A stretch of DNA of 29,418 nt from positions 1 through 29,418 of the IMG/VR virus record IMGVR_UViG_3300011116_000308; one strand, written 5' to 3'. The translations under genes were made by a program, and so were the position numbers. Numbering within the stretch: position 1 is the first letter of the stretch; each line of letters starts with the position of its first letter. The DNA comes from a virus. The notes beneath the pieces are model-generated. The model was not told where the DNA came from and searched no databases. It saw nothing but the letters and a program-made list of their open reading frames with translations. Positions 4,327 to 7,368 of this stretch are shown in pieces.

Positions 4327-4813
4327 TATCTTCAACCTCAAAATCTTCCACTTCATATGACTCAGATGTTTCTTCCATTTCATCATCATTGAGATTGTGA
4401 GAGATACGGATATCAAAATCGCCATCTGAGATGTCATCATCTGTCCAATCAAGCGGAACATTGAATTCATATTCTGCTTTAACGGTAAATGTAACTTTGA
4501 TAGATTTTGTAAGTTCAATATTGAGTTCCTCTGCTAATTCTTTAAGGTCATCAATATCAACTGCATCTTCCTTTACTTTATCTTTAATGAATTCCTCTAC
4601 CGCATTACGAGTGTTGATGTATTTGGCTTGGTTTTCATTTGCGCGGTTTTCTTGTCTTGCCGCTTTTACTTTTAGACTATCTGTTTCGTCAAGTAAGCGT
4701 GTAATTTCATCAACGATTTGTAAAGATGTCATTGTTTTAACAATTTCATCTGCGCGTTGTTGATTGTTAAACGCTTCTGCTGGTATTGATGTGATTTGTT
4801 CATTGGTTGTCAT
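4319..4813 (-). CDS. Acidic coiled-coil phage protein (164 aa)
   Basis: Residues about 20-100 form charged helices (IVDEITRLLDETDSLKVKAA, then NAVEEFIKDKVKEDAVDIDD) that should form a coiled coil. Residues ~105-125 look like strands (SIKVTFTVKAEYEFNVPLDW), and the last 40 residues are extremely acidic (EDFEVEDND end). AAAGGG lies before ATG 4813; an upstream ATG at 4882 would run through the intergenic hairpin and is less likely. No family recognised; the acidic tail is compatible with DNA mimicry or a chaperone-like role, but that is speculation. Confidence 0.75.
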   Translation of the reverse strand: MTTNEQITSIPAEAFNNQQRADEIVKTMTSLQIVDEITRLLDETDSLKVKAARQENRANENQAKYINTRNAVEEFIKDKVKEDAVDIDDLKELAEELNIELTKSIKVTFTVKAEYEFNVPLDWTDDDISDGDFDIRISHNLNDDEMEETSESYEVEDFEVEDND

Positions 4814-4875
4814 TTTTATTATCCCTTTTTTTATTTTTAACCATTTGCCGATGAGAGGCTCATCAGTAGTGCCGA

Positions 4876-4932
4876 ATAGCACTAGATAGCACTTGTGAAA
4901 ATTAAAAAACTGCTGACTTCCGCAAGTGCTAT
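4876..4932 (-). other. Inverted repeat in 125-nt intergenic gap, with T tract
   Basis: Perfect 10-bp arms ATAGCACTTG (4886-4895) and CAAGTGCTAT (4923-4932). A second partial copy of the left arm, ATAGCACT, lies at 4876-4883, so two left arms compete for one right arm. In the leftward transcript a TTTTTT tract lies within the loop rather than after the stem. This could be an attenuator-like switch or a regulator site; the gap holds no gene. Confidence 0.45.
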
Positions 4933-4938
4933 TTCGCC

Positions 4939-5154
4939 TTATTGATGTTGATTATGAATTGCGTATAAACCAATTGCGTTACTACTTTCAACTAATTGGT
5001 CTGCAATCTTCATTGCCATATCGTGATTTTGAGAAGCAATTGCTCTGGCAAATATCTCTGGTGCTAATAAGAGAAACGCCAAATCGGATTCAATATTTGT
5101 AACTGGTATTGACGGACAGTTACATTGGCTGGGTAATTTAATTACTTCACCCAT
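4939..5154 (-). CDS. Hypothetical protein (71 aa)
   Basis: Starts MGEVIKLPSQCNCPSIPV; the rest is a helical segment (LAFLLLAPEIFARAIASQ) followed by MAMKIADQLVESSNAIGLYA. I used ATG 5154 because it overlaps the upstream stop as TAATG, implying coupling; ATG 5172 (six residues longer) is an alternative. Family not recognised. It is moderately hydrophobic but has no clear transmembrane helix. Confidence 0.65.
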   Translation of the reverse strand: MGEVIKLPSQCNCPSIPVTNIESDLAFLLLAPEIFARAIASQNHDMAMKIADQLVESSNAIGLYAIHNQHQ

Positions 5155-6031: not shown

Positions 6032-6208
6032 TTAAGCCACCTTCTTCCCTTTGTATGTGGTCATATATTTACTTTTTGTAACTGTCCATTCGGTTACTTT
6101 TACTTTGTGATTGTGTTTAGTTAGTAACGCTTTTGCTTCTTTTACTGTTTTCTTTTCTGCGCTTTTCCAACCGCAATCGCAGAAAGATTGATATACGATT
6201 TTTGCCAT
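6032..6208 (-). CDS. Small Cys-containing protein (58 aa), first gene of the left arm
   Basis: Starts MAKIVYQSFCDCGWKSAEKK; a CxCGW motif is followed by helix KEAKALLTKHNHKVK with two histidines, so a single small metal-binding unit (CxC...HxH) is possible. The C-terminus is very basic (Lys-rich), which would suit nucleic-acid binding. GAAAGGG precedes ATG 6208; the upstream ATG at 6241 has no ribosome binding site. It is the first gene reached by leftward transcription from the large intergenic region. Confidence 0.7.
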   Translation of the reverse strand: MAKIVYQSFCDCGWKSAEKKTVKEAKALLTKHNHKVKVTEWTVTKSKYMTTYKGKKVA

Positions 6209-6244
6209 TTTTGTCCCTTTCGTTAATAGGCGTTCCATCATCAG

Positions 6245-6296
6245 TTACGGCGTGCCTAGTGCCGTAAGACCACGCCAACTTTTAGTGTTAGCGTGG
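6245..6296. repeat. Two tandem stem-loops upstream of the left-arm operon
   Basis: Stem one: TTACGGC (6245-6251) with GCCGTAA (6261-6267), loop 9 nt. Stem two: CCACGCCAAC (6270-6279) with GTTAGCGTGG (6287-6296), one A-C mismatch, loop 7 nt. They lie 2 nt apart, just before the first left-arm gene. Neither is followed by a T tract in the leftward direction, so they look like leader structure or the 3' end of an RNA rather than a plain terminator. Confidence 0.6.
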
Positions 6297-6984
6297 TTTC
6301 GGAATTTGTTTGTCCCTAGTTATTTAGTGTTTGCGTTATTGTGAAACGCTATCGGTGTGCCAAACCGACCTAAAAGGTAATTCTCCATACCGACTTCCGC
6401 CTTATTTGGATTGCGCTGATTAGCAACTACTGTGGGTGCCTTTATCTGTCACTTTCTAGGACTTACCCGTTGCGTGCGTTCCCTTATTTGCGTGTCATAA
6501 CTCCGTGTAATGTGTTATATCGGCGTATTGTGAACCTTGCCGAATACCGAACCTCTGCCTAATTACTGTTAGTGTGATTATCAGCGACTAACAGATTGTG
6601 CTGGCTATGTTCGGACTTGCACTTTGTTACTGGATACTCTAAACGGTGCAAATAAATAACGAATTTGCTTACCGTTCGTGCCTTCCATTTGAAATAAGTA
6701 TCAAATAAATTTTGCTAAACCGTTTACAGTCCCTAGGGATTTAATGCTGGGCGGTTTGGTTACTCTCTATTTGTTACTTATTTATTTGTCAATTTGCGTG
6801 TGGGTAATTTACTTTCGTGAGCCGAAGTTAGGGTGCCTAGGCGTTAATCCCTGTCCGATTTCTCGGGTAACGGTTTCTCTCGATTTCTAGAACCACTATT
6901 TAGTTATGGAAGTATCCTATCACACCACGCCGAGATGGGTTTTAGAGGGTGTTTTTAACGCCGTTACAGCCCCGTAGAAGCCCG

Positions 6985-7015
6985 ATTATATGCAAATGAT
7001 AGGTAGATATTGCAA
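6985..7015 (-). promoter_or_regulatory. Candidate leftward promoter for the left arm
   Basis: On the minus strand a perfect TATAAT (plus positions 6985-6990) lies 19 bp downstream of TTGCAA (7010-7015). The spacing is slightly long. A transcript from here would start near 6978 and carry some 770 nt of hairpin-rich sequence before the first left-arm gene. A second possible -35 (TTGACA, 6787-6792) has only a poor -10 (TAGAGA). Confidence 0.4.
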
Positions 7016-7038
7016 CTTGTATTTGAGTGGCTTAAATT
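7010..7038 (+). promoter_or_regulatory. Candidate rightward promoter
   Basis: TTGCAA (7010-7015), 17 bp, TAAATT (7033-7038) on the plus strand, upstream of the only plus-strand genes. TTGCAA is its own reverse complement and is also the -35 of the candidate leftward promoter, so the two may be back-to-back. Both hexamers match the consensus at four of six positions, so this is tentative. A second option is TACACT at 7126-7131, placed so that transcription would begin on the ATG at 7138 (leaderless). Confidence 0.3.
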
Positions 7039-7137
7039 GGCTTACAAGGCAGATAGTAGGCATTTGATTAATTCCGCGCAAATGTTACACGGTGTTGCAC
7101 TTGCTATGTTATGTATGTGTGGCTCTACACTTCCGAT

Positions 7138-7368
7138 ATGGCTACATCACCAGATAAATCACATTACACACACATTGAAATACGGTGCGGTGGGTTAATT
7201 GTTGCGTTCGGAACAGAAGCAGAATATCCAGATTTGGTTGATGATTTGGCGGCACGCACACTAAATATGTTCAAAGAAAGCGTTGCGGTTGCAAAAGAAA
7301 ACGGGATTGATATTACAGATATGCGGTTAATTACTGCCGATTATGGCGATGATGACGAAGAAGATTAA
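7138..7368 (+). CDS. Hypothetical plus-strand protein (76 aa)
   Basis: One of only two credible genes on this strand. It begins MATSPDKSHYTHIEIRCGG, has a strand-like GLIVAFGTEAEYPDLVDDLA, a helix, and an acidic C-terminus (DYGDDDEED). Neither ATG 7138 nor the upstream in-frame ATG 7111 has a ribosome binding site. TACACT 7 nt before 7138 would fit a leaderless transcript, which is common in actinobacteria, so I prefer 7138. It overlaps the 29-aa Cys-rich ORF through TAATG. Family not recognised; a small regulator transcribed against the late block is possible. Confidence 0.68.
   Translation: MATSPDKSHYTHIEIRCGGLIVAFGTEAEYPDLVDDLAARTLNMFKESVAVAKENGIDITDMRLITADYGDDDEED

Follow-up and report, generated by a model that had tools for sequence, protein, structure and literature searches.

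The stretch of DNA analyzed here, referred to as the window, is a 29,418-base IMG/VR virus record in which nearly all genes are read leftwards. These include the portal, tape measure, and tail genes, a DNA-repair-type exonuclease gene, and, beyond a gene-free stretch, the DUF932 and RecT genes. Judged by two of the window's proteins, its best matches among named phages are actinobacteriophages. The gene-free stretch is bordered by ATG codons at 6208 (minus strand) and 7138 (plus strand) and, together with the adjoining plus-strand gene at 7138-7368, separates the exonuclease gene from the early genes. The first-pass annotation had described a gap of approximately 900 bp without a gene, and this description holds: open reading frames (ORFs) within the stretch are 20 to 53 amino acids (aa) long on both strands, and the longest stop-free run in six frames of homologous sequences is almost always 26 to 83 codons, the exceptions being runs of 114 and 126 codons, each in one homologue sequence. 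A tRNA/tmRNA search of the window found neither, and a tRNA or tmRNA identity was rejected on these grounds. The product of the divergent gene at 7138-7368 is an acidic protein of 76 aa without a family. A listed 69-aa ORF at 6032-6241 begins within the ribozyme described below; its true start is probably at 6208, behind the Shine-Dalgarno-like sequence GAAAGGGACAAAA. In the following list of features, HHR1 and HHR2 denote two hammerhead ribozymes, and "RNA" denotes the putative leftward product of the gene-free stretch.

7138..7368, plus strand: small divergent gene, 76 aa, at the border of the RNA; retained whether or not a relative has the RNA
6269..6980, minus strand: RNA body plus ribozyme stem III, recognized by homology, covariation, and the lack of an ORF
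6655..6660, minus strand: pseudoknot loop strand GUUAUU, within hairpin 6676-6642
6374..6639, minus strand: multibranched central/3' domain, with most helices 91 to 100% paired and carrying double changes; they include 6630-6626/6501-6497, 6614-6609/6552-6547, 6595-6582/6576-6565, 6546-6536/6527-6516, 6473-6469/6427-6423, and others
6319..6324, minus strand: pseudoknot linker strand AAUAAC, directly upstream of HHR1
6301..6318, minus strand: CUAGGGA ... UUCC, the GGGA of which could base-pair with the UUCC strand of stem II
6227..6304, minus strand: HHR1, type II hammerhead, recognized by cmscan (RF02276), a strict descriptor, and its pseudoknot
6304-6301/6236-6233, minus strand: HHR1 stem II
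6300-6297, minus strand: HHR1 GAAA
6297-6287/6279-6269, minus strand: HHR1 stem III, 11 bp
6267-6261/6251-6245, minus strand: HHR1 stem I
6258-6254/6231-6227, minus strand: HHR1 loop-I pseudoknot
6244-6238, minus strand: HHR1 core CUGAUGA
6032..6208, minus strand: first gene after HHR1, 58 aa, at the variable-cassette position
4846..4939, minus strand: HHR2, type II hammerhead by the strict descriptor, with a predicted cut between 4885 and 4884

Relatives were collected via the exonuclease, which yielded 80 contigs, about 19 of them containing the entire non-coding stretch, and extra relatives were added by means of conserved RNA patterns, resulting in a group A of 23 distinct sequences, including the window. 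The stretch is homologous in 22 other IMG/VR contigs, at roughly 66 to 82% identity to the window. Groups B (L032, L033, L036, and kin) and C (L022, L024 to L028, L030, and L056) are divergent; the size and place of their RNA are as in group A, and motifs in the central/3' domain are common to all three groups. Group D (L041, L043, L046, L052, and kin) has a shorter leader of about 300 nucleotides (nt) in which some 3' motifs are retained. We noticed that L041, L042, L043, L046, L059, L052, and L054 combine a leader of this length with a divergent HHR1 and the motifs AAGTAAGGGAACGTACA and ATAGGGACAAAC, and it is possible that the leader of such contigs is a reduced form of the large RNA. The remaining relatives, many of them close, are without the RNA stretch. 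A blastn search against named phages gave no real match, and 117 exact RNA-pattern matches in cellular genomes included no homologue by profile and are chance matches only. L012 carries an insertion of about 100 nt (approximately 4456-4570) in the 3' domain of its RNA, which no other member of group A has.

Two nearly adjacent stems at 6245-6296 had been noted in the first-pass annotation. They are present, and they belong to a type II hammerhead as its stems I and III, an identity that had been overlooked, as had the second copy 1.3 kb downstream. The core of HHR1 is complete (CUGAUGA, GAAA, and U6269-C6268 before the cut) and identical in the relatives, and from its sequence the cut is predicted to fall between 6268 and 6267, after C6268. 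A narrow cmscan matched the window's HHR1 to RF02276 with 29.8 bits (E value of 8.4e-5) against a gathering score of 37 bits. In L040, L024, and L056, Hammerhead_II, matched at the region's 3' end, exceeds this score (44.0, 41.8, and 38.4 bits). The strict descriptor recovers HHR1 in nearly all relatives. It gives no additional hammerhead at the RNA's 5' end and has no match in cellular DNA (1.76 Mb, counting both strands). Throughout 21 sequences, pairing is complete in stem III (11 bp) and stem I (6 to 7 bp), and the open stem II is 84.5% paired. According to PMC3088659, a pseudoknot between loop I and the sequence after stem II is typical of type II hammerheads. Since the automatic alignment misplaces this pseudoknot (49% paired), each sequence was checked individually, and at least 4 bp were found in every complete HHR1, with a compensatory change from UAGGC/GCCUA to UUGGC/GCCAA in L040 and L109. 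A direct repeat, AGGGACAAA, occurs in the linker (6317-6309) and in the Shine-Dalgarno region (6218-6210), so that the ribozyme sits between two copies; in two members of group D (L046 and L059), the repeat is lengthened to approximately 15 nt, AGGGACAAACAAAAT.

The strict descriptor places HHR2 of the relatives 0.5 to 1.8 kb downstream of HHR1. This ribozyme has no loop-I pseudoknot like that of HHR1. Its stem III contains a long insert, which is common to the relatives and is probably the reason why an Rfam search of the window itself did not detect HHR2; hammerheads at the HHR2 position of L024 and L056 attain the Rfam score. Three hammerheads each are found in L004, L052, L054, and L092.

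A large structured leftward RNA had been suggested for the stretch, with covariation in related phages as the means of checking it, and this covariation is found. For group A, RNAalifold gives 178 pairs; 93% of the cells are paired, and both sides have changed in 70 pairs. Many double changes within this group derive from a few clades. In a separate alignment evaluated with our own counting tool, 94.4% of cells are paired, compared to 85.7% after shuffling, and 53 pairs are double changed, compared to 28.7; the covariation score is 0.276, versus 0.125 for shuffled alignments and at most 0.069 when the structure is slid. Substitutions were also re-dealt along the tree in a tree-aware, R-scape-like null. 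Under this approximate null, which had no more than 23 sequences to draw on, 9 of the 178 structure pairs reach an E value of ≤0.05, and these lie in several separate helices of the body and HHR1. The minus strand as it stands has a folding z score of -3.15, and the mean over 13 homologues with the ribozyme removed is about -1.1. Folding energy alone is weak evidence for structure, and it is mainly the comparison of the relatives (pairing and double changes against shuffles) that places the structure beyond chance. The hairpin CCGA-GAAA-UCGG remarked on previously is present at 6866-6855, with a CCGU/ACGG variant in relatives. The 5' end of the RNA is only an estimate, with conservation starting from about 6975, and its predicted 3' end after cleavage is C6268. 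It is very likely that the stretch specifies a structured RNA that is conserved and has a type II hammerhead as its end. A TATAAT, as noted earlier, is indeed present at about 6990-6985, but its reading as a leftward promoter is not supported, as it is not kept in relatives. A consensus scan gave no sigma-70-like promoter, no conserved promoter for the RNA was found, and a terminator scan returned one terminator-like site, no more than the chance level.

The loop of hairpin 6676-6642 and the linker preceding HHR1 form a non-nested long-range helix, with all 6 pairs formed in each of 21 sequences and three pairs double changed. Its commonest sequence is GUUAUU/AAUAAC, which is replaced by GACAAUUAC/GUAAUUGUC in L020 and is also re-paired by other sequences in L010. 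Group B has GUUAGU/ACUAAC, and in group C the helix is GGUAAUU/AAUUACC in L024 and GGUAGU/ACUACC in L056.

The gene directly after HHR1 falls into 14 unrelated clusters among the relatives, which argues that the RNA and its ribozyme are a module independent of their neighbors. The gene after HHR2 belongs to a single family in 18 of 21 cases, and the two hammerheads hence appear to bracket an exchangeable cassette, while the RNA and ribozyme stay constant. L127 (981-3218) has an RNA that is 92% identical to that of L003 beside an exonuclease only 53% identical to that of the window, whereas the exonuclease of L003 is 94% identical to it. Together, these findings point to a self-contained, moving module and to a role in trans rather than to a switch for a given gene. 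L440 has an L127-type exonuclease and the start of the RNA, and no other relative with this type of exonuclease has the RNA; L127 is an apparent case of horizontal transfer of the RNA module. Comparing the sequences shows that the structure is conserved, that the ribozyme and the pseudoknots are present, and that the context is modular.

In light of this, we propose that a structured RNA of about 700 nt heads the leftward operon toward the DUF932 and RecT genes. The body would fold during transcription, with the loop-linker pseudoknot forming beside the ribozyme, and HHR1 would then cut after C6268 and free the large RNA from the mRNA. The freed RNA would end in the stem III hairpin with a 2',3'-cyclic phosphate, and the remaining mRNA would start with a 5'-OH and carry the cassette of exchangeable small genes, which HHR2 (4939-4846) would sever from the conserved early genes. 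By analogy with GOLLD or ROOL, the freed RNA would most likely act in trans as a stable structural RNA. Transcription, cleavage, and stability are what we infer from these features, and for any trans role the sole basis is that the neighboring genes change; on balance, a released trans-acting RNA is the probable reading. Because the pseudoknot adjoins the ribozyme, gating also stays under consideration, and we tentatively entertain the idea that this phage RNA, about 700 nt long, is mobile and gates its own hammerhead release via the loop-linker pseudoknot. Such a self-gating RNA might, with the same degree of reserve, be either a hammerhead under natural allosteric control or a nanocage-type RNA that matures itself.

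Alternatively, the large RNA could be a cis-acting leader that, as a sensor or a gate formed by folding, turns the hammerhead on or off and in this way controls the downstream genes. It would then be a natural allosteric ribozyme with a logic comparable to that of glmS. The covarying pseudoknot ties the body to the linker just before stem II, the CUAGGGA segment is able to compete for a stem II strand, and the Shine-Dalgarno sequence of the downstream gene follows shortly after most HHR1 ribozymes, all of which would suit such a leader. However, the gene to be controlled is inconstant, belonging to 14 unrelated clusters, and the GGGA/UUCC pairing, a possible competitor of stem II, is missing from group D and unvarying in group A, hence its lack of covariation support. 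We consider control in cis unlikely. Somewhat more doubtful still is an mRNA leader concerned with stability or antitermination, in which the hammerheads merely split the transcript into gene-sized pieces and the 5' fragment has no role. Cutting of a polycistronic RNA has been proposed for prophage tandem hammerheads flanking gene blocks (PMC3088659), and the pattern in the window is the same, but for a mere leader there would be no need of some 700 nt containing pseudoknots and covarying long-range helices, or of movement between phages as a unit.

With regard to the strand, A makes up 65% of the invariant unpaired positions when the minus strand is read, compared to 20% among paired ones. 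A-rich unpaired sites are a usual mark of large structured RNAs, and the minus strand was for this reason taken as the RNA. The 15-to-0 ratio of G-U to A-C cells in the ribozyme stems fits an RNA read leftwards. In the body helices (30 GU versus 60 AC cells), wobbles do not favor the minus strand, and folding energy does not tell the strands apart, neither being unusually stable without the ribozyme. Given these body z scores and wobble counts, it is conceivable that the body instead acts as plus-strand RNA, serving the divergent gene (7138-7368) as a long 5' leader. In that case, however, the invariant unpaired sites would become 65% U, unlike those of large structured RNAs generally; moreover, the ribozyme and its linked pseudoknot are minus-strand features, and the plus-strand gene is present also in relatives without the RNA. 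We hold a plus-strand leader to be highly improbable, and the functional strand of the body is very likely the minus strand. A DNA element, either a packaging site or the replication origin offered as an alternative in the first-pass annotation, is the least credible reading, with hardly any probability left to it: the stretch is non-coding, rich in palindromes, and flanked by divergent genes, and its body helices have few wobbles, but GC skew has no turning point here, the intact core of the hammerhead and the pseudoknots are hallmarks of RNA, and many close relatives lack the stretch.

Membership of the RNA in the GOLLD or ROOL family had also been raised, and it finds no support: neither these nor any other Rfam family matched the body in the window or relatives, at the gathering score or at relaxed E values (≤5 for the window and ≤2 in two relatives). 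GOLLD is often located near tRNA islands, and the RNA described here differs in that its window has no tRNA. GOLLD and ROOL are large ornate phage RNAs that form nanocages (PMC12286853); like them, the RNA here is phage borne, several hundred nucleotides long, and pseudoknotted, and as in GOLLD its 3' part is more conserved than its 5' part, but it has no sequence or structure match to them in Rfam and would have a 3' end made by a hammerhead. HHR1 resembles RF02276 in its core CUGAUGA, GAAA, UC cleavage step, closed stems I and III, open stem II, and loop-I pseudoknot. The occurrence of tandem copies around phage genes is likewise shared and was described by Perreault et al. in 2011; a hammerhead that ends a large conserved RNA and is tied to it by a pseudoknot is not described in the passages of that report consulted (PMC3088659). 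Theta ribozymes, located at the 3' ends of phage tRNAs, are similarly phage self-cleaving ribozymes positioned so as to generate an RNA 3' end, but they have an HDV-like fold and a tRNA cargo in place of a hammerhead and a large RNA (PMC10879173).

In the open-access literature, to which our search was confined (subscription journals and supplements lay outside its scope, so that a prior mention is possible), a large structured phage RNA with a hammerhead end is unreported. The body, which is conserved across many freshwater-type phages, appears to represent a new large phage RNA family, and to our knowledge, few RNAs this large and complex are known. The work also bears on why phages keep hammerheads, for which it offers a concrete and testable answer, namely, that in at least some of them the ribozyme would make the end of a large RNA, and the RNA-hammerhead module may serve as a defined system for asking what large phage RNAs do.
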